A DNA stretch of 34,912 nucleotides from IMG/VR virus record IMGVR_UViG_3300045107_000588, positions 1-34,912 of that record; one strand, written 5' to 3'. The notes below the pieces were generated by a model. That model was not told the origin of the DNA, searched no databases, and saw only the letters and a program-made list of their open reading frames with translations. This DNA comes from a virus. Of this stretch, positions 25,843 through 34,912 are shown one piece after another. Each line of letters opens with the position of its first letter. Position 1 is the stretch's first letter. The translations under genes and the position numbers were made by a program.

Positions 25843-26586
25843 TTACCATGCCAATTGGCCCTTAGTTGCACCTTTAGTTGCACCCCCTTTCCAACCCTTG
25901 CGCACCGCGTCCAGGGTTTCGTTTTCGTCGGGCTCGACGTACTGGCTAAGCTGGGCCAGGTTGGAGTGGCGCAGCACTTTAATCACTACGTTCGCTGGCA
26001 CATCGAACTGCATGCTCAGCTTGGCGAAGGTGTTGCGGCCACGGTGCATGCTCAACAGTTGCCACTTGGGTAATTCTCTCACCCGGGTGCCTGATAGGTA
26101 GCGCTGCTCAACCCGCACTAGCGCGGTAAGCCCGGCCAGCCTGCCTATTGTCTTGAGGTTTTTGTTTAGCTTCTGCACAGCTCCTACTCCTTCGTCGAAC
26201 AGCCGTTGTAAGTGTGGGCGCGCGGCATTGGCAACGTAAGCCTTGGGCGAGTAGCCGGTCATAAATTGAACCACAGTTTTCTTTTGCTCTATCGCGCGCT
26301 GAGTGCCTTTTGCCGGAATAAAAATTGCCGGCGAATATCCTATTGAGGTAAATGGTGCCCTTCCGGTTGTGTCGCTATAGAAGAAATCTTTATCATAGTA
26401 TACTGAATACATCTCGGTGCCGTCAATTTTACGAAACTCGTCTTGTAGCAATGTATACTTTTGACGGTAACCAGGGTAATTGTATCCGTAATTATTTTCT
26501 TGATTGAGCAGTAAAACAGGCAAGTAATTCCATTGCCCATATGCCACGCCGCACAGCATGGCCAGTGTGATGAGGATGGTTTTCAT
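25843..26586 (-). pseudogene. Chimeric tyrosine-recombinase remnant: secreted-protein leader fused to the integrase C terminus
   Basis: A 247-aa frame. Residues 1-18 form a clear signal peptide (MKTILITLAMLCGVAYG, then Gln), and residues 19 to about 90 are Tyr/Asn-rich and unlike any integrase. From about residue 95 it follows the Bacteroidota phage-integrase pattern: IEQKKTVVQF (beta-hairpin Lys), NKNLKTIGRLAGL, the HxxR box in MHRGRNTF, the LRHSN box, and the nucleophile Tyr in LSQYVEPD. The core-binding domain and first catalytic Arg box are absent, so integrase activity is very unlikely. Base composition changes from AT-rich to GC-richer near 26310, at the apparent joint. It lies 6 bp after the repressor stop, in the same operon. 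It could still be made as a secreted protein with a foreign tail. Confidence 0.7.
25862..25887 (+). repeat. Paired GTTGCACC repeats, copy pair 2 (inside the integrase remnant's 3' end)
   Basis: TTAGTTGCACC occurs at 25862 and 25874, again 12 bp apart, 149 bp after pair 1. On the minus strand it encodes the G-A-T-K-G-A-T-K-G tail of the integrase remnant. A further GTTGCACC lies in the tRNA-like D arm at 25577. Confidence 0.5.
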
Positions 26587-26592
26587 ATTTGG

Positions 26593-27297
26593 TTAAAATG
26601 GGGTTTGACGTTGTTTAACTATCCACGCTTCCTTTAATCGTGTGGCGTAGGTTTCTACCGTTGGGTAGTCGGGGTTAAGAGAAAGCAGTTGAATCCGGCG
26701 TTCTAGCAATACCTTAACTTGTTTCAGCGCAATAACCGAACCATCGTTATCCGCGTCGGGCAGGTAGCGCACGACGTAGAACTTGTTTGCGCTAAAATCA
26801 GTGGTAAGGGCGCGTTCACAAATTACTATATCTCCGTCGCTGAATTTTGGTTCCATTGAATCTCCGGCCACGATGAATGCCAGGGGTTGGGATGCAAAGC
26901 GAATGTTAACCACTTGTATGGTTGGGTATTCACGTAAGTCAATTTCGGTTATGGCCTTAAAGGGTTGCGACTGTATGCCTGCATACGCACGTAGGTCAAC
27001 AATAGGCACATCGGATATGTTTCGTACCGGCACTGGGTCGGCGTTGGAGGTTGGGCGTTCGTGGCCAGGGGTCGGTTGATCGGCAATGCCATTAACAAAC
27101 ATTTCGCCGGTTCCTTCAATAAGCCAAACTGGGTTGACCCTAAATTTTTCTAGCAATGCGGCACCAAGTCTTTTGGAAATTCCAACTTTTCCACGTTCTA
27201 CATCGGCAATAGATGTCACACCTACTTGTTCAGCTAGCTGCCTAGTTGTAAGACCGAGCGCATCTCTTAAAATTTTAAGTCGTTGGGCCTCAGTCAT
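26593..27297 (-). CDS. CI/LexA-like phage repressor (HTH plus S24 peptidase)
   Basis: A 234-aa protein. Residues 6-60 are a HTH domain (LKILRDALGLTTRQLAEQVG, ADVERGK) with the Bacteroidota-type NPVWLIEGTGEMF ending. Residues about 130-220 are an S24 domain with catalytic Ser147 in AGDSMEP and Lys192 in ALKQV. A YAGIQ site (Ala106-Gly107) in the linker is well placed for RecA-stimulated self-cleavage. It would hold the early operon silent in the lysogen and release it after DNA damage. It diverges from the Cro-like gene at 27382. Confidence 0.88.
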   Translation of the reverse strand: MTEAQRLKILRDALGLTTRQLAEQVGVTSIADVERGKVGISKRLGAALLEKFRVNPVWLIEGTGEMFVNGIADQPTPGHERPTSNADPVPVRNISDVPIVDLRAYAGIQSQPFKAITEIDLREYPTIQVVNIRFASQPLAFIVAGDSMEPKFSDGDIVICERALTTDFSANKFYVVRYLPDADNDGSVIALKQVKVLLERRIQLLSLNPDYPTVETYATRLKEAWIVKQRQTPF

Positions 27298-27381
27298 TTA
27301 CTTTTATCGATAGAATTATATAATGATTTAACTTGCAATTGATGGAATTTTGCTATTAATTTGATGTAAATTCTAACAAAG
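27298..27381. promoter_or_regulatory. Lysis-lysogeny control region
   Basis: An 84-bp AT-rich gap between the divergent repressor and Cro-like genes. On the plus strand TTG (27333) and TTAATTTG (27356-27363) are about 20 bp apart, one mismatch from the Bacteroidota TTTG/TAnnTTTG promoter. AGAATT (27312-27317) and AATTCT (about 27369-27374) are inverted copies flanking it and are candidate operator half-sites. Confidence 0.55.
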
Positions 27382-27600
27382 ATGCAAGGCGTACTAATAA
27401 TTCCACACGGTTATCGGTCGCGGATAGCGAAAGAGCTAAACGTTCACCCAGCCGTTTTATCTCACGTTGTAAACTTTCCTGCTGAAAAAAAGGCTGCCAT
27501 TGAAGAGCTGTTGCATTTAGCCGCAACCGACAAAATCGAATTCGAGCGCAAGGTGCAACACTACCGCGAGCGCTTTGCCAAGAAGGAGGCTGCGGTATGA
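27382..27600 (+). CDS. Cro-like small DNA-binding protein
   Basis: A 72-aa basic protein. It has a short leader (MQGVLIIPHG), then a helix-turn-helix-like YRSRIAKELNVHPAVLSHVV (about 11-30) and a long helical tail. It is the first gene of the rightward early operon opposite the repressor, the Cro position. No cofactor site is seen. The last codons carry the Shine-Dalgarno (AAGGAGG) of the next gene, whose ATG overlaps its stop. Confidence 0.65.
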   Translation: MQGVLIIPHGYRSRIAKELNVHPAVLSHVVNFPAEKKAAIEELLHLAATDKIEFERKVQHYRERFAKKEAAV

Positions 27601-28052
27601 GCCACGACGAGATGCAGGCCCAAATGCGCGTGGTGCGCGGCACCGCTGCAATGATGGATGCGTTCATGGGTGCCATTACGGGCCCTGTTAACCCCGCCGA
27701 CGAGGCCGATTTCCAGCCTAGCGAGGCCCAGGGGGGCTTACCCGATGACCACTTATTCCCGCCGGTCGAGGTAAAGAGAATCGAGCGCAAGGCGACACCC
27801 GAAGAGCACGAGGGCAGGCTGGAGCCTAACGCCCGCATCCTGGGCACGGTTGGGCAGCCCGTCAATTTCCCCAGCCTGCAAGGGCTAGACCACCTCACCG
27901 CGGCCCGCGTCGAGGCGCTACTGGGCCACATGGACGATGTACTGCACAACCACAATGCGTGGCTGTACAGCGAAAAGGCCGACATGGCCGGTAACCTACT
28001 GGCCTATATACGTGCTGTGCTCACGGATTTCCACAAATCAAAGCAAAGGTAA
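27597..28052 (+). CDS. Unknown early protein
   Basis: A 151-aa acidic protein. Helical ends (EMQAQMRVVRGTAAMMDAFM at the N terminus; MDDVLHNHNAWLYSEKADMAGNLL near the C terminus) flank a disordered Pro/Glu-rich middle. Position two in the early operon suggests a host-takeover or replication accessory role. I recognise no family. It has one of the few strong Shine-Dalgarno sites in the genome. Confidence 0.55.
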   Translation: MSHDEMQAQMRVVRGTAAMMDAFMGAITGPVNPADEADFQPSEAQGGLPDDHLFPPVEVKRIERKATPEEHEGRLEPNARILGTVGQPVNFPSLQGLDHLTAARVEALLGHMDDVLHNHNAWLYSEKADMAGNLLAYIRAVLTDFHKSKQR

Positions 28053-28059
28053 CAAAGTT

Positions 28060-28827
28060 ATGTTGACAACAGCAAATGAGCCTATCGTAATAGGCCACAA
28101 TGTTATCCGTCGCGACAAAGAAGGCCGATTCAGTCTAACCGATTTGTGGGCCGCAGCAGGCCGTGAGGCCAAAAGAACACCCAGCGACTGGCTACAAAGG
28201 GATGTGGCCAAAGAATGGGTGGAGTACGTGGCTGGCACCCGACCCCCAAAAATGGGGGTCGCCCTTAAAACCATCAAGAATGGCGCTAACCCAGGTACGT
28301 GGGCCGATTATCAAATAGCAATGGCTTACGCCAAGTGGCTAAGCCCAGCATTCCACGCCGAAGTGAACGAGGTGTACCGCCGCTTCATGGCAGAAGAGCG
28401 AAACCCCGACTTGGCGGTAGAGCGGGCTACGCTGAACTACCAGCGCAGGGGCAAAGACAATCTATGGATTGCTCGGAGGTTTAGCGGCATCGCCACGCGC
28501 AAAGGTTTGACCACTACACTAGCACAGCATGGCGTGAAAGGCGAAGGCTTTGCCGAATGCACAAACGCCATCTACCTGCCGCTATTCAACGCCGACGCAA
28601 AAGGCATTAAGGCTAAACGCAATCTACCCGAAACGGCAAGTACACGCGATAGCATGAGCATGCTGGAGCTAAACGCCGTGGCCTTGGCCGAATGCTTAGC
28701 GCAGCAGAACATCGAAAACAAGCAAGCAAGCGGAAATAAAGAGTGTGCAGGTGAATGCAACACCGCCAGCCGCCATGTGGCAAGAGCCGTTTCAAGATCA
28801 CTCAATCCTACACCCTTACCGATATGA
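28060..28827 (+). CDS. KilA-N domain protein
   Basis: 255 aa from ATG 28060. Residues about 8-115 form a KilA-N domain: VIRRDKEGRFSLTDLWAAAG, D-W-L-Q-R-D-V-A-K-E-W, GTWADYQIAMAYAKWLSPAF and VNEVYRRF. The C-terminal half has K-G-L-T-T-T-L, ECTNAIYLPLF and a helical N-L-P-E-T-A-S-T-R-D-S-M-S-M-L-E-L segment, a pairing common in phage antirepressor-like proteins. It binds DNA or other regulators in the early phase, with a role in anti-repression likely but unproven. The next gene overlaps its stop (ATGA). Confidence 0.8.
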   Translation: MLTTANEPIVIGHNVIRRDKEGRFSLTDLWAAAGREAKRTPSDWLQRDVAKEWVEYVAGTRPPKMGVALKTIKNGANPGTWADYQIAMAYAKWLSPAFHAEVNEVYRRFMAEERNPDLAVERATLNYQRRGKDNLWIARRFSGIATRKGLTTTLAQHGVKGEGFAECTNAIYLPLFNADAKGIKAKRNLPETASTRDSMSMLELNAVALAECLAQQNIENKQASGNKECAGECNTASRHVARAVSRSLNPTPLPI

Positions 28828-29009
28828 ACTCGATGACCTACAATCAACGTCGCATCGAATCCTTTCTGCGCACTCGCTTCAACGCCAAACCAGGCGTGAT
28901 AAAGGCAGTGGCAGAGCGTAGCACGCGGTTCCTGAGCGATAGCGCCAATCTAGAAACCGTCGACCGCAAGCTGTGGTGCAAGCAATTCAAAGCCGTTAAA
29001 GCCGCATAA
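28824..29009 (+). CDS. Small unknown protein after KilA-N
   Basis: A 61-aa, strongly basic protein with two predicted helices (NQRRIESFLRTRF; VDRKLWCKQFKAVK). The ATG at 28824 overlaps the KilA-N stop. The S-D-S-A-N-L-E-T-V-D-R-K spacing looks like a small DNA- or RNA-binding helix pair. No family is recognised. Confidence 0.55.
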   Translation: MNSMTYNQRRIESFLRTRFNAKPGVIKAVAERSTRFLSDSANLETVDRKLWCKQFKAVKAA

Positions 29010-29046
29010 GAAACCCAACTGACAACCACAAAAAATAGCAACCACG

Positions 29047-29853
29047 ATGAGCACAGAAAAGATTTACACCCAGGCTGATATTGATGCCGTAAAAGCTGGC
29101 AAATATGGTTGGTATCAGTTTCCTAAAGGTTCTTACTCTAAAGATGTAGTGTTGCCCAGCAACGCGGACTTCCAAGGCAACGCGGACTTCCAAGGCAACG
29201 CGGACTTCCAAGGCAACGCGCACTTCCAAGGCAACGCGGACTTCCAAGGCAACGCGGACTTCCAAGGCAACGCGCACTTCCAAGGCAACGCGCACTTCAA
29301 AGGCTACGCGTACTTCCAAGGCAACGCGCACTTCAAAGGCAACGCGGACTTCCAAGACTACGCGTACTTCCAAGGCAACGCGGACTTCAAAGGCAACGCG
29401 CACTTCAAAGGCAACGCGCACTTCCAAGGCAACGCGGACTTCCAAGGCAACGCGCACTTCCAAGGCAACGCGTACTTCCAAGGCAAAGCGTACTTCAAAG
29501 GCTACGCGTACTTCCAAGGCAACGCGCACTTCAAAGTTTGTCCAAAATTTGCTTCAGAGGCGAAAGCAAAAGAAGTTTATTGGAATTGTTTGATTCCAGT
29601 GCCATCACAGCTTCATTACCAGTGGTTGCTTCCTTCAGAAAACCAAAGGGAGTATTGGCGGGATAGAATTAATGAAGTCCTGTTATCGGAGAGCGATTTA
29701 CATGAAATGGTATGCCTTGCTGATTGCTACAGTCAAATAGGTCAAGAACTGCTTCCTTACCTACCGGCATTGAAAAGTTACAAGTACTGGGCACCGGTTG
29801 AGCGGCAGTTTGTGGAAAGTTGGTACAAAAAGCTTATTGCTAAAGTAGCCTAG
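29047..29853 (+). CDS. Hexapeptide-repeat (beta-helix-like) protein
   Basis: A 268-aa protein in three parts. Residues 1-38 are a short leader (YTQADIDAVKAGKYGWYQF). Residues 39-163 are about 21 repeats of N-A-x-F-Q/K-G, where x is Asp, His or Tyr, encoded by 18-bp units at 29161-29535. Residues 164-268 are a helical C-terminal domain with W/Y-rich motifs. Six-residue periodicity with a buried Phe suggests a parallel beta-helix or solenoid with one face of D/H/Y. It is related in style to pentapeptide-repeat proteins, some of which mimic DNA. It starts with ATGAGCACA, and the next gene begins 2 nt after its stop. Confidence 0.7.
   Translation: MSTEKIYTQADIDAVKAGKYGWYQFPKGSYSKDVVLPSNADFQGNADFQGNADFQGNAHFQGNADFQGNADFQGNAHFQGNAHFKGYAYFQGNAHFKGNADFQDYAYFQGNADFKGNAHFKGNAHFQGNADFQGNAHFQGNAYFQGKAYFKGYAYFQGNAHFKVCPKFASEAKAKEVYWNCLIPVPSQLHYQWLLPSENQREYWRDRINEVLLSESDLHEMVCLADCYSQIGQELLPYLPALKSYKYWAPVERQFVESWYKKLIAKVA
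29161..29535 (+). repeat. 18-bp tandem repeat coding for N-A-x-F-Q-G
   Basis: About 21 copies of AACGCGnACTTCCAAGGC with variation mostly at the third codon and the Q/K codon. Whole-unit gain or loss keeps the frame. Confidence 0.95.
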
Positions 29854-29855
29854 CT

Positions 29856-30053
29856 GTGCCGCCCTTTACACCCACACCCGAGCAAGAGCGATACGCCGAC
29901 TACCTAGTAGAGCGCGTCGCGCAACGTGTGAACGGGATTATTAACAAAGAGCGCCATGCATCACTGCATTTCTTTTGGAATCAACTGATAAAGGGCATTC
30001 ACCTGCTAACCCCAAAAATCCGTAAAGCACTAACTCAACAAAAAGCCGCATGA
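29856..30053 (+). CDS. Small unknown protein with GTG start
   Basis: A 65-aa basic helical protein beginning MPPFTPTPEQERYADYLVERV. The GTG start lies 2 nt after the previous stop. The next small gene starts on its own stop (ATGA). No family is recognised. Confidence 0.5.
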   Translation: MPPFTPTPEQERYADYLVERVAQRVNGIINKERHASLHFFWNQLIKGIHLLTPKIRKALTQQKAA

Positions 30054-30154
30054 AGACGATTAGCAATCCCAAACCACTAAACCCAGGAGAATGGGCACTC
30101 GTTATCGTGATTATCCTCTCAACTATTTTTTCAATCTTTTCAAACCTAGGCTAA
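30050..30154 (+). CDS. 34-aa single-span membrane protein
   Basis: A very short frame from ATG 30050 on the previous stop (ATGA) to TAA 30152-30154. Residues 1-14 are polar (MKTISNPKPLNPGE) and residues 15-31 are a single membrane span (WALVIVIILSTIFSIFS). The tight fit between two genes, 2 nt before the next ATG, supports it. It could be a small inner-membrane regulator. Confidence 0.55.
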   Translation: MKTISNPKPLNPGEWALVIVIILSTIFSIFSNLG

Positions 30155-30156
30155 CT

Positions 30157-30498
30157 ATGAGCACATTATTTTTTTCTGCCGACCACCCCTACTGGGAACT
30201 TCACCCCGACAATCCGGCGCGGCAGCCATTACCCGAACCTGAAATGGTGTGGTGCGATATGTGTTGTGAGCGATTTGAACTAGACGAAATGGTGCCATTC
30301 GGCAAGGTTTACATTTGCGAATCCTGCGCCCAATCCGAAGGGCTTTCCGATTCTAATCCAATTTGTTCAAGTATCGGTTGCCAAAACTTAGCTACAGAAA
30401 CACTTTACAAAAAGCCCTACTGCAAGCTATGCGCGGACATCGTTAAACCCGAATTGATTCAAGCCATTCAAAAGGAAGCGACTATATGCGCCAGGTAG
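30157..30498 (+). CDS. Double zinc-finger protein
   Basis: 113 aa from ATG 30157. It contains two Cys4-type sites: WCDMCCERF (Cys-x2-Cys) with CESC about 25 residues on, and CSSIGCQN with YCKLCAD. The layout is that of a small zinc-ribbon/treble-clef protein that binds nucleic acid or protein. It starts with ATGAGCACA. It overlaps the following gene by 13 nt. No family name is assigned. Confidence 0.65.
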   Translation: MSTLFFSADHPYWELHPDNPARQPLPEPEMVWCDMCCERFELDEMVPFGKVYICESCAQSEGLSDSNPICSSIGCQNLATETLYKKPYCKLCADIVKPELIQAIQKEATICAR

Positions 30499-30701
30499 TT
30501 GATTACTGGGTGAGCGACGACAATTTGTTCGACCATGTGATGTGCATTGCGCGCACCGGCCAGCTTTACTGCATGCCTCCTGAGCACCAGCAATACTTGG
30601 CGGGCTTGGCAAACCACGAACGCAAGCTGCATGGCCTACTATACAGCCTAAACTGCGCGCCACACGACCACTACACCAATACCAATGAAGGAGCAATTTA
30701 A
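30486..30701 (+). CDS. Small unknown early protein
   Basis: A 71-aa protein starting MRQVVDYWVSDDNLF, with Cys and His spread through it (C20, C29, C57, several His) but no clear metal motif. It overlaps the zinc-finger gene and precedes the annealing-protein gene. No family is recognised. Confidence 0.5.
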   Translation: MRQVVDYWVSDDNLFDHVMCIARTGQLYCMPPEHQQYLAGLANHERKLHGLLYSLNCAPHDHYTNTNEGAI

Positions 30702-30718
30702 CCCTAACCCACATACAC

Positions 30719-31633
30719 ATGAGCACAGCATTAGAAACAATTCAAGCAACGGAAGTAACAATAACGCCTACCGCGCTTGAGAGCCAAACGCGAGCCGAGA
30801 TAGATGTGCAAATCGCAACGGCTAATCGGTATCCGCGCAGCTTGACAAAATTTACAAACGAGGCAACAGGCTATGTTACCCTATCGCCCGAAATCGCCGA
30901 CGGCTGTATTTACGCATTGCCGCGCGGGGGCAAGGAACTAGAAGGGCCTAGCATTCGATTCGCCGAAGTGATAGCCAGCACATGGGGCAACTTACGTTGT
31001 GCCGCCCGCATCGTAAGCGAAGACGAAAAGTTTATAACGGCACAAGCTATTGTGCACGATTTACAAACTAACGTGTGTGTTGCCGAAGAGGTTCGCCGCG
31101 CCATCGTTGGTAAAGACGGACGGCGTTACAACAACGATATGGTAATCGTTACCGGCATGGCCGCCAAATCCATTGCTTTGCGCAATGCGATTTTGAAAGT
31201 AATTCCGCGTTCAGTATGGGAACCGATTTACAAAAAAGCTGAGGCCACTATCACTGGTGGCAAAGATGTTGAAACGCGTTTGGCTGCTGCATTCCAATTC
31301 TTTTTGGACAAAAAGGTGCCCGAGGCCAAAATACTAAATGCCCTGAGCATTAGTTCGCGCGCCGAACTTAATCAAAACCACTTGCTTACCTTAATTGGTT
31401 GGGCCAATTCAATTAAGGACAACCCAGGCAATCTGCAAGATATTTTTTCAGAGCAAAAGCCAACCAACTCGCTTGAAATAATTGGCTTGCTACGCAGCGA
31501 GGCCACCATTAAATACGCCAAGCAAGTTCCCGCTAAGCAATTGGAAAAAATGTGGGACGATAGTGCTCAAGACGAAACACGCCTACACGAATTACTGCAC
31601 GACTTCCTAACCAGTAATACTAATGGAAAGTAA
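30719..31633 (+). CDS. Probable single-strand DNA annealing protein (RecT/Sak-like role)
   Basis: A 304-aa protein. The conserved-looking core has ALPRGGKELEGPSIRFAEVI (about 66-85), W-G-N-L, a strand VCVAEEVRRAIVGKDGRRYN (about 119-138) and a GMAAKSIALRNAILKVIP helix (about 146-163). The pattern matches a recurrent phage family found just upstream of RecE-type exonucleases. Such pairs do single-strand annealing recombination: the nuclease resects and the annealing protein pairs complementary strands. It overlaps the exonuclease gene by 11 nt. The function is from context and general resemblance; I cannot assign the superfamily. Confidence 0.6.
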   Translation: MSTALETIQATEVTITPTALESQTRAEIDVQIATANRYPRSLTKFTNEATGYVTLSPEIADGCIYALPRGGKELEGPSIRFAEVIASTWGNLRCAARIVSEDEKFITAQAIVHDLQTNVCVAEEVRRAIVGKDGRRYNNDMVIVTGMAAKSIALRNAILKVIPRSVWEPIYKKAEATITGGKDVETRLAAAFQFFLDKKVPEAKILNALSISSRAELNQNHLLTLIGWANSIKDNPGNLQDIFSEQKPTNSLEIIGLLRSEATIKYAKQVPAKQLEKMWDDSAQDETRLHELLHDFLTSNTNGK

Positions 31634-32396
31634 GCCACCATACGACGAAGTTAAAGCAGTAAACCAAACCTTGCTGAAGGAGTTTATGCGCTCGCCCTAC
31701 CATTTCAAATTGATGTGGAACGGGATTTTGAAACGCGAACCAACACCTGCGCTGGGCTTTGGCCACGTGGTGCACATGGCCGTGTTTGAACCGATGCGAT
31801 TTGATTCCAGCTACGCACCGCTTGACGAAGCCACTGATTTAAGAACCAAGGCTGGCAAGGAAGCAAGGCAAGCGATTATCGATTCCGGCAAGTCGCCCAT
31901 TAAGCCACAAGAATATGAAGCAGCGCTACGTATCCGCGACGAGGCTTTCAAGCACCCCATGCTGATGAGCATGCTGGGCGATGGCACAACGGAAACAGAA
32001 TGGTACAACCAAGTCAACGATGTGGCTTGTAAGGGCAGAACCGATTGGCATCACCCGTCAGTGGGCATTTTAGATTTGAAGACTTGCGAAGACGCAAGCC
32101 CGCATGAGTTTGCCAAAGATGTGTGGCAATACAAGTATTATATACAAGCTGGCATGTATACTTTACTAACCGGCCTGGATAGATTCTACTTTGTAGCAGC
32201 CGAAAAAAAGCCACCATACCTAGTTGTTGTCTATCAACTGAACGAAGAATACCTGATATACGGGCAGTCTAAGGTGCGCGACCTACTTACTCGCATCAAG
32301 AAATGCTTTGAGCACAACGACTGGCCGCGCTACGAATACTGGCAAGACAATCAAAACATTTTAACCCTTAACCCGCCCGCTTGGGCACAAATATGA
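31623..32396 (+). CDS. RecE-like PD-(D/E)XK exonuclease (DUF3799-like)
   Basis: A 257-aa protein. The early helix NQTLLKEFMRSPYHFKLMW and GFGHVVHMAVFEP (His51) match the start of PDDEXK_1/DUF3799 nucleases. The catalytic core is CKGRTDW (D141), GILDLKTC (D151 and K153) and the QAGMY motif (Q175, Y179). It would digest 5' strands processively to leave 3' overhangs for the annealing protein encoded just before it. It is coupled to both neighbours by short overlaps (11 nt upstream, ATGA downstream). Confidence 0.85.
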   Translation: MESKPPYDEVKAVNQTLLKEFMRSPYHFKLMWNGILKREPTPALGFGHVVHMAVFEPMRFDSSYAPLDEATDLRTKAGKEARQAIIDSGKSPIKPQEYEAALRIRDEAFKHPMLMSMLGDGTTETEWYNQVNDVACKGRTDWHHPSVGILDLKTCEDASPHEFAKDVWQYKYYIQAGMYTLLTGLDRFYFVAAEKKPPYLVVVYQLNEEYLIYGQSKVRDLLTRIKKCFEHNDWPRYEYWQDNQNILTLNPPAWAQI

Positions 32397-32701
32397 GCAC
32401 AAACACATCTGTTTTCGTGGACGTTCGCCACGACTTTACGGACGAAGAAAACCTTGCTTTTGGCCGCAAGATGAGCGAATTGCAGGAAGAAGTAAACGCG
32501 CTTGAGGAAGAAAAGAAGGCTGCGAAAACCTTCAACTACACCACCTTCCCTTCGCTATGCGAGGGCCATCTGCCCAAGGGCACTGGCAACACGCTGAGCG
32601 ACCGCGCCCGTGAGCGTGCATACCTCGAACTGCACAACGGCCCTGCTGAAAAAGTGCGGGCGGAGAAGATGCTCAGAAATCGTTTATGGAAAAAGCTCTA
32701 A
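32393..32701 (+). CDS. Small coiled-coil early protein
   Basis: 102 aa from ATG 32393. Residues about 18-45 form a coiled coil (NLAFGRKMSELQEEVNALEE). The rest has an L-S-D-R-A-R-E-R-A-Y helix and a basic end. It starts with ATGAGCACA on the exonuclease stop. It may be a partner of the recombination pair. Confidence 0.6.
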   Translation: MSTNTSVFVDVRHDFTDEENLAFGRKMSELQEEVNALEEEKKAAKTFNYTTFPSLCEGHLPKGTGNTLSDRARERAYLELHNGPAEKVRAEKMLRNRLWKKL

Positions 32702-32710
32702 AGCAACCCA

Positions 32711-32866
32711 ATGCAAACACCTAATTGCCACCCACTTTGCGAAGCCCTAGAATGGGGGCAATTCGCATTGATTGTGGTATTGTATTCAGCCTTTGCCGCT
32801 TTGCTTATCGTTAAAGCATTCGACCTTTTTGTTTACTCCAAACGCAAAAGAAAAACCCATGCCTAG
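32711..32866 (+). CDS. 51-aa single-span membrane protein
   Basis: A short frame from ATG 32711 to TAG 32864-32866. Residues 1-16 are polar with two Cys, residues 17-41 are hydrophobic (FALIVVLYSAFAALLIVKAF), and the tail is basic (YSKRKRKTHA), fitting an N-out/C-in topology by the positive-inside rule. It overlaps the next ATG by 8 nt. It fills an otherwise empty gap. Confidence 0.6.
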   Translation: MQTPNCHPLCEALEWGQFALIVVLYSAFAALLIVKAFDLFVYSKRKRKTHA

Positions 32867-33149
32867 AAAATCACGCCAAGCGATCGTGGACGAGATGGCT
32901 AAGCGCGGAACCGAAAAGTTGTTGGCCGAGCTGATTTTTGAGCAGCAAGCCACTAACCTCAAGCTTGACGAGCAAAACAGCCTACTGCATAGTATCTGGC
33001 GCGAGTCGTTGCCGGGCCGCCATGATCGTTTGGCTGAGGGGTTATACGTTGCCAAAATGGCCTCACTTTCTTGGGATAGCCTTAAAGACAAAGAAACAGT
33101 TTATAGCAATGACGTTAATAAAGCAGCCTTGAATAGGGCGAATCCCTAG
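32859..33149 (+). CDS. Small unknown early protein
   Basis: 96 aa from ATG 32859. The helical N-terminal half (RQAIVDEMAKRGTEKLLAEL, a QQATNLKLDEQNSLL coiled-coil stretch) is followed by a less ordered tail. The upstream tiny membrane gene overlaps it. No family is recognised. Confidence 0.55.
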   Translation: MPRKSRQAIVDEMAKRGTEKLLAELIFEQQATNLKLDEQNSLLHSIWRESLPGRHDRLAEGLYVAKMASLSWDSLKDKETVYSNDVNKAALNRANP

Positions 33150-33180
33150 TAACAACTAACCACTTAACCACACCATAACC

Positions 33181-34014
33181 ATGCAACCACTACGCGCATT
33201 CCACAACGACCCGGAGTTAAAGGCCCGCAAGCAGGCCGAGATGAAGGCGCACCGACAGGCTGACGAGTTGGCCCAAGGCTTTTACTTTTCCAAAGAAAAT
33301 GAGCCATTCAAGGGCTGTAGCGTCGGCTGCACACTTGGGGTAAGGTGCAATGATCCTCATGAAAGATACCCCGAATTGTTAGGCCTGCCCTCTTGGTCGG
33401 CCTATATACAAGACAAGATTTTTGAGGGCTTGCCATTCACGAAAGCTGCCCAGTTTAGTGAAGACTTCTTAGATGCCATACCGGTAGGTAAAACCAACTG
33501 GGATGACACCAAGTTTAGAACACTAGCGCGAATACTGCGTGAGGTAGTAGTGCCAAGTATTGCCGAAAATTTCACAGAAGTGCGTAACATAGTTGAGCGT
33601 GTGGCCAGCTTGTGCGATAAATGGCGCACTACAACAAAGGAAGGTTGGGCTGGGGCTGAGGCTGGGGCTGGGGCTGCGGCTAGGGCTGCGGCTGCGGCTG
33701 GGGCTGCGGCTGGGGCTGGGGCTGCGGCTGGGGCTGGGGCTGCGGCTTGGGCTGGGGCTGGGGCTGCGGCTGCGGCTGCGGCTTGGGCTGGGGCTGCGGC
33801 TGCGGCTGCGGCTGGGGCTGCGGCTGCGGCTTGGGCTTGGTCTGCGGCTGCGGCTGCGGCTGGGGCTGGGGCTGCGGCTGCGGCTGGGGCTGCGGCTGCG
33901 GCTTGGGCTTGGGCTGAGTCTTGGGCTGGGGCTGAGGCTGCGGCTAGGGCTAAGGCTGCGGCTTGGGAGCGAATCGCCCAAATCTTTCTTGAGGAACTGG
34001 CTCGTTTAGATTAA
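33181..34014 (+). CDS. Early protein with an Ala/Gly/Trp repeat tail
   Basis: A 277-aa protein. Residues 1-155 are an ordinary folded domain with LRAFHNDPELKARKQAEMKA, the KGCSVGCT motif (44-51), LGLPSWSAYIQDKIFEGLPF and a WDDTKF helix. I recall this as a recurrent early protein of phages of many hosts. Residues 156-262 are almost pure Ala/Gly with spaced Trp and a few Glu/Arg, encoded by GGGGCT/GCGGCT hexamers (33643-33966). A helical C terminus (AAWERIAQIFLEELARLD) closes it. The tail would form a long helix with Trp on one face. The function is unknown. Confidence 0.7.
   Translation: MQPLRAFHNDPELKARKQAEMKAHRQADELAQGFYFSKENEPFKGCSVGCTLGVRCNDPHERYPELLGLPSWSAYIQDKIFEGLPFTKAAQFSEDFLDAIPVGKTNWDDTKFRTLARILREVVVPSIAENFTEVRNIVERVASLCDKWRTTTKEGWAGAEAGAGAAARAAAAAGAAAGAGAAAGAGAAAWAGAGAAAAAAAWAGAAAAAAAGAAAAAWAWSAAAAAAGAGAAAAAGAAAAAWAWAESWAGAEAAARAKAAAWERIAQIFLEELARLD
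33643..33966 (+). repeat. GC-rich hexanucleotide repeat (GGGGCT/GCGGCT)
   Basis: About 50 units of a 6-bp motif, coding Ala-Gly or Ala-Ala with Trp where TGG appears. The motif has no stops in any plus frame, so long spurious frames occur on both strands. Confidence 0.95.
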
Positions 34015-34016
34015 CC

Positions 34017-34912
34017 ATGGCCAAACTACCCTCATTTCAGTTTTACCCAGGCGATTGGATGAAAGACCCCAATCTCAGGCGCTGTTCTAGGGCGGCTAAA
34101 GGGCTTCTCATGGACTTATTATGTTTAATGTTTGAGTGCGAGGAACGTGGCTATTTGATTTATGCCAACGTGCCGTGGCCTGATGACGACATCGCTGCTG
34201 CCGCTGGGGGGGATATAGCTGAGAACCTTATGTTGCTCCACGAACTGTTGGCGAAAGGTGTCCTCTTACGTGATGAGCGGGGTGCGATATGTTCTCGCCG
34301 TATGGCTCGTGATGAACAAAACAGGCAAGCCCACCGAGAAGCCGGTAAAAAAGGGGGTAACCCCAATTTGGTTAACCAAAATTCAACCAAAACTCAACCA
34401 AAGCCCCAACCAAAGCCCCAACCAAACCCCAACCAAAGCCCCAACCAAAGCCCCAACCAAAAACCAACCCCTTCATCTTCATCTTCATCTTCATCTTCAT
34501 CTTCATCTTCATCTTCGGATTATACCCCCCCTACCCCCCCAAGGGGGGAAAGCGCGCAAGCGCGCGAACCGGTTTTTGAAAAAAAATCGAAGCATGGTTT
34601 TTCGGAAAATTCCACGTTAGCCGAAAGCGACAAGGAAACCAAAGAACTGGGCGCGCCGATTTTGAACGCAAACGGGCCGCCAAGCAACGAACACAACACG
34701 AGTGGGGCTGGACTTCCACTCAAAAACGAAAGTGCCGTAAAACGCGCCACAACGCAAAATCCAAAAATTGAAAACGAAACACCTTGTATGGCTCGTGATG
34801 AACAAAACAGGCAAGCCCACCGAGAAGCCGGTAAAAAAGGGGGTAACCCCAATTTGGTTAACCAAAATTCAACCAAAACTCAACCAAAGCCCCAACCAAA
34901 GCCCCAACCAAA
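34017..34912 (+). CDS. Replication organiser protein, N-terminal part (continues at position 1)
   Basis: Starts at ATG 34017, 2 nt after the previous stop. Residues 1-95 form a DUF1376-like domain: FQFYPGDWMKD (7-17), C-S-R-A-A-K-G-L-L-M-D-L-L, ERGYLIY, D-D-D-I-A-A-A-A-G-G and LLAKGVLLRDERGAICSRRM. This is the winged-helix-type N terminus of phage replisome organisers that bind the origin. From 34302 it continues in frame into the repeated segment. At 34785/34786 the frame is kept through a TGT (Cys) codon where the other copy has TAC (Tyr). The gene is complete only when read across the junction to 872. Confidence 0.75.
   Translation, partial: MAKLPSFQFYPGDWMKDPNLRRCSRAAKGLLMDLLCLMFECEERGYLIYANVPWPDDDIAAAAGGDIAENLMLLHELLAKGVLLRDERGAICSRRMARDEQNRQAHREAGKKGGNPNLVNQNSTKTQPKPQPKPQPNPNQSPNQSPNQKPTPSSSSSSSSSSSSSSSDYTPPTPPRGESAQAREPVFEKKSKHGFSENSTLAESDKETKELGAPILNANGPPSNEHNTSGAGLPLKNESAVKRATTQNPKIENETPCMARDEQNRQAHREAGKKGGNPNLVNQNSTKTQPKPQPKPQP
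34300..34785 (+). repeat. 486-bp direct repeat, right-hand copy
   Basis: Identical to 1-486. It is preceded by unique TTCTCGCC and followed directly by a second start of the same unit at 34786. Confidence 0.95.
34786..34912 (+). repeat. 127-bp end overlap (identical to 1-127)
   Basis: The exact 127-bp identity between the last and first bases marks a circular or circularly permuted molecule of 34,785 bp. 127 is a common assembly word size, so this segment is most likely the redundant overlap and not a third biological copy. Confidence 0.85.

Follow-up and report, generated by a model that had tools for sequence, protein, structure and literature searches.

Tandem hexapeptide arrays encoded by 18-bp units form a widespread phage family of the Sfi19 gp229 type, which is represented by PHROG 7964 and 5070, PF18836 (YdcK beta solenoid) and the YdcK structures 2f9c and 2pig, and is called V-core here. 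Similar arrays turned up by tblastn in 37 phage records, each with query coverage below 80%; 19 of the 37 were opened and had mainly Val at the core position, and 10 of these 19 were aligned and shared a common N-terminal module with five invariant columns. All eight V-core proteins scanned matched both PHROG 7964 and 5070, and six of the eight passed the PF18836 cut-off (no match in Javan318, below cut-off in MA9V-1), while the V-core protein P26059A matched solved YdcK 2f9c at 1e-14. V-core relatives of the design analyzed below were common in IMG/VR, and at least 479 of 600 pattern-matched IMG/VR stretches, among the matches listed, encoded the V-core N-terminal module.

Of the 270 records that matched the gp229 region, five (three phages, counted together with their RefSeq duplicates) covered at least 80% of it, and CHPC929, the single site opened among the others, contained both neighbors of gp229 without gp229 itself; on this gene content, the gp229 gene is accessory and dispensable in its setting. 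Recombination genes were found close to the V-core gene in several phages: ERF directly beside it in Javan318, phiST1 and MissD, RecT nearby in Javan174, and Gam plus Rad52 nearby in phiRM10. A conserved link to recombination genes was rejected, as the matches across 80 IMG/VR loci showed no fixed order, with 17 loci having one downstream and 18 having one upstream (ten probe proteins from four phages plus the window were used, and misses are expected with such a set).

A described prophage counterpart is CLIBASIA_05650 of 'Candidatus Liberibacter asiaticus', which was called an interrupted gp229 and, according to PMC3296602, harbors 18-bp hexapeptide repeats in 18 or 22 units with a 72-bp in-frame insertion. 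By this description it shares 18-bp V-led repeats of variable number with the phage hexapeptide arrays, and its Val-led, imperfect repeats are unlike the Phe core described below. Variable phage hexapeptide repeats are thereby already in print (PMC3296602), and this was the sole direct prior art on variable phage hexapeptide solenoids recognized in a search of mainly open-access literature; within the same literature, no earlier report was found of a Phe-core form with the present ends or of sister-phage differences concentrated in the array.

The repeat gene and its surroundings

The window (the whole 34,912-nt stretch of viral DNA analyzed, IMG/VR record IMGVR_UViG_3300045107_000588) contained a repeat ORF composed of a hexapeptide array between two non-repeat segments (Table 1).

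Table 1. Coordinates of the repeat ORF, its parts and its neighbors in the window
Feature	Position	Strand	Details
CI-like repressor, divergent	26593..27297	-	PHROG 4, 1.3e-23
KilA-N domain gene, upstream of repeat gene	27937..28827	+	Pfam PF04383, 6.4e-18
Antisense ORF	28996..29529	-	177 aa across the array; judged a repeat by-product; used as AF2 control
Repeat ORF	29047..29853	+	268 aa; 21-unit hexapeptide array between an N-terminal segment and a C-terminal region
N-terminal segment	29047..29160	+	38 aa; AF2 strands begin at residue 23 (single-sequence model)
Repeat array	29161..29538	+	21 x 18-bp; consensus AAC GCG (G/C/T)AC TTC (C/A)AA GGC = N-A-[DHY]-F-[QK]-G
C-terminal region	29539..29850	+	104 aa; four low-confidence predicted helices, block pLDDT 35-61 from residue 171
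PHROG 3657 protein (unknown function), downstream of repeat gene	30719..31633	+	3e-47
Exonuclease VIII-like, DUF3799 (PDDEXK)	31623..32396	+	PHROG 412, 6.1e-62; PF12684

The array and its register were read directly from the DNA. Residues 39-164 of the ORF consisted of 21 six-residue units without indel, the step being exactly six residues in all 21, and Tandem Repeats Finder delimited the array at 29159-29536 (period 18, 21.0 copies, 91% match, 0% indels, score 588). These 21 in-frame units confirmed the count of about 21 hexapeptides from near-identical 18-bp units given in the first-pass annotation, and the motif N-A-[DHY]-F-[QK]-G proposed there held exactly for 15 of 21 units, while the other six differed at one position each (YAYFQG three times, KAYFKG, NADFQD, and NAHFKV as the final unit).

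Nine distinct DNA units were present, with a mean pairwise identity of 0.90. The Ala codon GCG and the Phe codon TTC were identical in 21/21 units, a count in which no selection pattern was involved, and the remaining variable codons were as follows: (i) AAC in 17 units, TAC in three and AAA in one at codon 1; (ii) GAC in eight, CAC in eight and TAC in five at codon 3; and (iii) CAA in 15 and AAA in six at codon 5. Codons 1, 3 and 5 held 94% of the differences among units 1-20, and synonymous differences numbered zero; this absence of synonymous change is not significant and is weak evidence, because about six mutations with roughly 18% synonymous sites leave a chance of about 0.3 of seeing none. 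A diversity-generating retroelement was set aside as the source of the variation, which was not spread over adenines in general. Unit autocorrelation gave no signal in the window array (largest z +1.0, at lag 3), and elsewhere it gave lags 4 and 8 in phiST1, lag 8 in phiRM10 and mixed results in other arrays; an attempt to derive coil geometry from it was dropped on account of these results.

The array was open in four of six frames (three sense frames and antisense frame -0). Codon usage of the N flank was better in sense frame +0 (+0.18) than in antisense frame -0 (+0.02), that within the array was slightly better in antisense (0.44 versus 0.39 in sense), and that of the C region (-0.01) was uninformative. 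Most unit differences were synonymous when read in the antisense frame, and the strand therefore cannot be picked from the pattern of change by itself. The sense strand is the preferred coding reading, because 38 plus 104 non-repeat codons flank the array, the direction is that of the early neighbors, and the N-flank codon usage is better.

Past the divergent repressor, the plus strand displayed the order KilA-N gene, small ORFs, repeat gene, small ORFs, PHROG 3657 protein gene and exonuclease VIII-like gene. This early context was observed directly, and the placement in an early operon made by the first-pass annotation is plausible, given same-strand genes following a CI-like repressor with KilA-N upstream and the exonuclease downstream. 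A promoter scan of 26500-34300 gave 10 sites versus 6.8 expected (sd 2.4), one of them at 27297-27324, and proves nothing. The C-terminal half of the KilA-N gene product matched the PADLOC candidate defence models PDC-S13 (4.8e-22) and PDC-S22 (2.4e-8).

No phage relative was found in IMG/VR via the solenoid gene, its two ends, the PHROG 3657 gene, the exonuclease or the capsid, nor in GTDB genomes via the solenoid or the terminase, both scans starting from short peptide patterns that detect close relatives only; the solenoid-gene scan of IMG/VR gave one weak locus (L001, E 3e-4, 35%), which was left out. The IMG/VR pattern scan found no relative with the N-terminal 38 aa, the C-terminal 104 aa had no relative in these searches, and megablast of window positions 1-25000 against phages gave no match. 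The best tblastn matches of the terminase were Flavobacterium phages at about 30% identity, and a Bacteroidota host for the window phage is a guess from sequence.

The longest exact repeat within the array was 71 nt, and the two ends of the contig were identical over 127 nt, which suggests assembly with k=127; an assembler using this k could have resolved the array, since 71 nt is shorter than 127 nt. At the contig end, 34300-34785 matched 1-486 without a difference, and 34786-34912 likewise matched 1-127. A tandem duplication of 486 bp together with a 127-nt overlap from circular assembly may account for this, or else a loop in the assembly; NQSPNQ-type and poly-Ser arrays lay in the repeated sequence. 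A second in-frame repeat gene (33181-34014, plus strand) harbored an array at 33647-33967 (6-bp unit, 53.5 copies) encoding an Ala/Gly-rich stretch with scattered Trp, and its product matched nothing in Pfam at E <= 0.1 or in PADLOC at E <= 0.01. Further arrays were located inside ORFs of the same contig at 85-170 (12-mer and longer units) and 172-217 (CTTCAT).

Predicted fold and relation to V-core proteins

The AF2 model of the sense ORF, made without relatives, displayed strands at residues 23-25 and 28-30 and then every six residues to 160-162, with block pLDDT of 93-98 for residues 41-130 and a drop to 71 by residues 161-170; mean pLDDT was 76.3 to 68.5 across models, a narrower spread than for the antisense control, and pTM was 0.71. 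The antisense ORF gave as its best model a single long helix with pLDDT 93-98 over the repeat, and its five models had mean pLDDT of 85.5, 65.4, 56.8, 40.1 and 33.0 and pTM of 0.47. AF2 thus does not turn every hexapeptide repeat into a solenoid; equally, it was confident for a product that is probably not made, so that confidence alone says little. Superposition of the sense model by VIA-align gave rmsd 2.3-4.6 to right-handed beta-helices (pentapeptide proteins included) and 11.5-12.5 to left-handed ones (LbH entries, the fold of hexapeptide acyltransferases), and the handedness of the AF2 model is not trustworthy. Foldseek of the model gave no PDB match at E<=0.001 and a single match among viral models, a ranavirus protein (5.7e-4).

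According to PMC11795689, AF2 yields confident yet unrealistic beta-solenoids from perfect repeats, and on this account the fold is graded as no more than probable. Support apart from AF2 comes from the alternation of Ala and Phe with variable residues and from the Pfam Pentapeptide_3 (PF13576) score of the whole protein, 33.6 bits against a gathering cut-off of 27. Taken with the predicted strands every six residues, these make a beta-solenoid the most likely fold of the array, in agreement with the beta-helix that the first reading of the DNA had proposed.

The window array and V-core arrays have in common tandem 18-bp units encoding six residues, Ala at position 2, a hydrophobic residue at position 4, mostly Gly at position 6 and variation mainly at positions 1, 3 and 5, and the V-core gene likewise often lies in an early or replication region. 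The A2/V4/G6 framework with variable 1, 3 and 5 was thus present in the window in layout, but with Phe in place of Val at position 4, and the outward residues, which in V-core arrays are mainly R/W/Q/E and Y/S/F/C, were D/H/Y and Q/K. PHROG 7964 matched the window protein at 1.5e-22, an E-value of the kind inflated by repeats, and covered residues 36-173 only, compared to residues 1-240 of 245 in Javan318. The V-core N- and C-terminal modules had no match in the window protein, and neither did PF18836 at E up to 1, a test that is not sharp, as two of the eight V-core proteins also fail it. Kinship is not established, because the match is confined to the repeats and PF18836 gave none; the window protein appears to follow the same plan as the V-core family, rather than being a demonstrated member or homologue, and adds to this design a Phe-core form with different ends.

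Change within arrays

The V-core arrays of three S. thermophilus phages, CHPC919, SFi18 and Sfi19, were equal in repeat number and differed as follows: (i) CHPC919 and SFi18 had 13 differences in 1301 nt, all inside the 306-nt array, and all 11 changed codons were nonsynonymous, located at unit positions 1, 3, 5 and 6 with none at 2 or 4; (ii) CHPC919 and Sfi19 had 14 of 17 differences in the array, with 11 codons changed nonsynonymously and one synonymously; and (iii) SFi18 and Sfi19 had 10 of 13 in the array, with seven nonsynonymous codons and one synonymous.

Length differences were found in other V-core phages: the ORFs of L036/L041, L043/L046, L086/L092 and L074/L081 differed by 54, 18, 54 and 72 aa, respectively, next to upstream flanks identical at 298-300 of 300 bases, and Javan318 was longer than MissD by 60 aa and than phiNJ2 by 54 aa. 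In L036, L038 and L041, whose upstream flanks were 97-100% identical, ORF lengths measured from a common upstream point were 191, 239 and 245 aa, and the arrays were heavily re-dealt. Identical arrays in the pairs L026/L071 (probably the same phage), L046/L047, L068/L069 and L097/L098 mean that array change is not universal, and misassembly of arrays could mimic part of the unit shuffling and length change.

The in-frame expansion and contraction that had been put forward for the window repeats was thus seen in phage hexapeptide arrays of like design (also in CLIBASIA_05650, according to PMC3296602), and would extend to the window by analogy; for the window array itself, a comparison of repeat number with relatives found no close relative in IMG/VR, GTDB genomes or the phage megablast.

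Framework codons were largely uniform within V-core arrays. Over 11 arrays including that of the window, codons 1, 3 and 5 held a share of 0.78-1.00 of the differences, and piN exceeded piS in nine. The 80 IMG/VR loci comprised 65 with arrays and 15 without an array of eight or more units; 52 of these arrays had a unit identity of at least 0.8, and among them piN was above piS in 41 (46 of 65 overall), a count that retains L077, L103, L104 and L108, which were read in the wrong frame and had piN < piS. The median share of codons 1, 3 and 5 among the 52 was 0.75, lower than the 0.94 of the window. Arrays were picked by a pattern in which position 2 had to be Ala and position 4 hydrophobic, so that conservation there arises by construction, as does some of the surplus at positions 1, 3 and 5. 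This bias is absent from the codon table of the window and from the comparison of CHPC919, SFi18 and Sfi19, and differences between such near-identical phages are the strongest evidence on array change. Minimal mutation counts pooled over 13 arrays gave 16 synonymous versus 75 nonsynonymous changes, with no clear departure from the neutral expectation, and positive selection is therefore not proven; the sequences point to V-core arrays in which the core is constrained and the surface is free or diversified.

Possible roles of the repeat protein

We tentatively propose, as a reading that is quite possible though short of even, that the repeat gene is accessory, belongs to the early region and encodes a binding rod without enzymatic activity, the surface of which can evolve. 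In the model, the 21 six-residue units would stack as a parallel beta-solenoid, with Ala at position 2 and Phe at position 4 turned inward as the core and positions 1, 3 and 5 turned outward as a ladder of N/Y/K, D/H/Y and Q/K. By analogy with the V-core arrays, in which change was measured, the 18-bp units would duplicate, delete and recombine in frame, altering length and surface in one step with the core kept, and the rod would most likely bind a host or competitor protein early in infection (takeover or counter-defence). The combination of an accessory early gene, a fixed core and a restless surface would suit a protein that binds a changing opponent, again by analogy for the window. No enzyme was indicated, in that no such profile match rose above cut-off, and no PADLOC model matched the repeat protein at E <= 0.01.

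A wider proposal, which we consider rather doubtful, is that hexapeptide solenoids generally serve phages as a means of rapid surface diversification that needs no reverse transcriptase, and that the window protein would be a Phe-core version of independent origin. Recombination or slippage would shuffle units and change their number, leaving the buried ladder (A/V or A/F) intact while a limited set of outward residues is dealt anew, so that near-identical phages would differ almost only in the array, in the manner of an arms race with a variable host target. If V-core surfaces truly outpace the surrounding sequence, they would be signs of a conflict still under way with some target, and would provide a simple scaffold of natural origin for binding that can evolve.

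The array may instead be a low-complexity minisatellite expansion in a slippage-prone phage, disordered or loosely beta and with little or no selected function. The other in-ORF arrays of the contig (33647-33967, 85-170 and 172-217), the four open frames, the lack of relatives with the same ends in the IMG/VR and GTDB pattern scans, and below-cut-off matches to Plasmodium HRP and collagen-like adhesins, which demonstrate that repeats inflate scores, are consistent with such an origin, as is the non-diagnostic AF2 confidence (PMC11795689). Against it, the Ala and Phe codons were invariant in 21/21 units while the outward codons varied, as in V-core arrays, and non-repeat sequence of 38 aa and 104 aa was retained on the two sides; we regard it as somewhat unlikely.

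A polymer-forming, bactofilin-like scaffold, in which solenoids would stack end to end into filaments, is improbable. A regular solenoid could presumably stack, and the bactofilin cut-off was passed by three of nine comparison proteins, but the window protein matched bactofilin (PF04519) weakly, at 24 bits and below the cut-off of 27.9, its 104-aa C-terminal region would probably cap one end, and its context is that of an early accessory gene.

A DNA-mimicking inhibitor of gyrase or a restriction enzyme of the Qnr/MfpA type, as the first-pass annotation had suggested from pentapeptide-repeat proteins, is very unlikely, and near neutrality of the array ruled it out as the lead reading. Qnr, AlbG and MfpA possibly share a parallel beta-helix with the window protein, and the early gene position and the whole-protein Pentapeptide_3 score above cut-off would fit such an inhibitor. 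According to PMC10886550, the outward residues of pentapeptide repeat proteins are typically negative; in contrast, the 126-residue array was observed to contain nine acidic, seven basic and eight His residues (charge -1.55 at pH 7, pI 6.44), and the negative outward surface of the gyrase-inhibitor type was lacking, which leaves DNA mimicry and gyrase inhibition unsupported. The five-residue (or mixed five/six) step of PF13576 was also absent, the period being strictly six as opposed to that of Qnr, AlbG and MfpA; no single Pentapeptide_3 stretch passed E 1, and the best spanned only 10 residues (positions 4-13 of the 48 in the profile). The Streptomyces plasmid protein WP_327188233.1 (PF13576) shared with the window protein a Phe core, F-x-G-N-A-x-F stretches and a whole-protein score above cut-off, but it alternated five- and six-residue steps and scored 128 bits versus 33.6. 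As to the right-handed quadrilateral beta-helix of such inhibitors, the VIA-align matches of the AF2 model included AlbG (Z 11.6, rmsd 3.5, 177 aligned), QnrB1 (Z 11.3) and EfsQnr (Z 11.4), all three at rmsd 3.1-3.5, but AF2 models of perfect repeats are unreliable; many other beta-helices scored alike, and adhesins and a pectin methylesterase scored equal or higher (Z 11.6-15.0).

A virion or tail-fibre component is highly improbable, as the weak PHROG tail or structural matches within the repeat (phrog_6320 0.0042, phrog_5073 0.011, phrog_697 0.014) are set against a gene location some 7 kb beyond the tail-type ORFs, where the neighbors are a repressor, a KilA-N and an exonuclease gene. Scarcely credible is a coding antisense ORF with EVRVAL-type repeats forming a helix: its mostly synonymous unit differences (Val kept, mainly L/F changes), slightly better array codon score and confident best helix model are outweighed by a direction opposite to the neighboring early genes, a non-repeat tail with a codon score of -0.01 versus +0.18 for the sense N flank, and the disagreement of the five AF2 models.

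Besides the putative binding rod of the window, several V-core genes were found under misleading names in public records: (i) those of Javan prophages were called 'glycerol kinase' (L003:4597-5334, L009:3818-4594 and L015:3124-3564), and family searches on the first of these gave no glycerol kinase match; (ii) others were misnamed, e.g. 'putative acyltransferase'; and (iii) the V-core array of Vibrio phage 1.034.O (L018:3080-3400) was annotated as five CRISPR spacers, which is probably an artefact of the 18-bp repeats. Hexapeptide arrays were also present in three consecutive 'polymer-forming cytoskeletal protein' genes of S. salivarius plasmid pIKMIN-B502 (L024:1902-4233), a record with 27 matching places.
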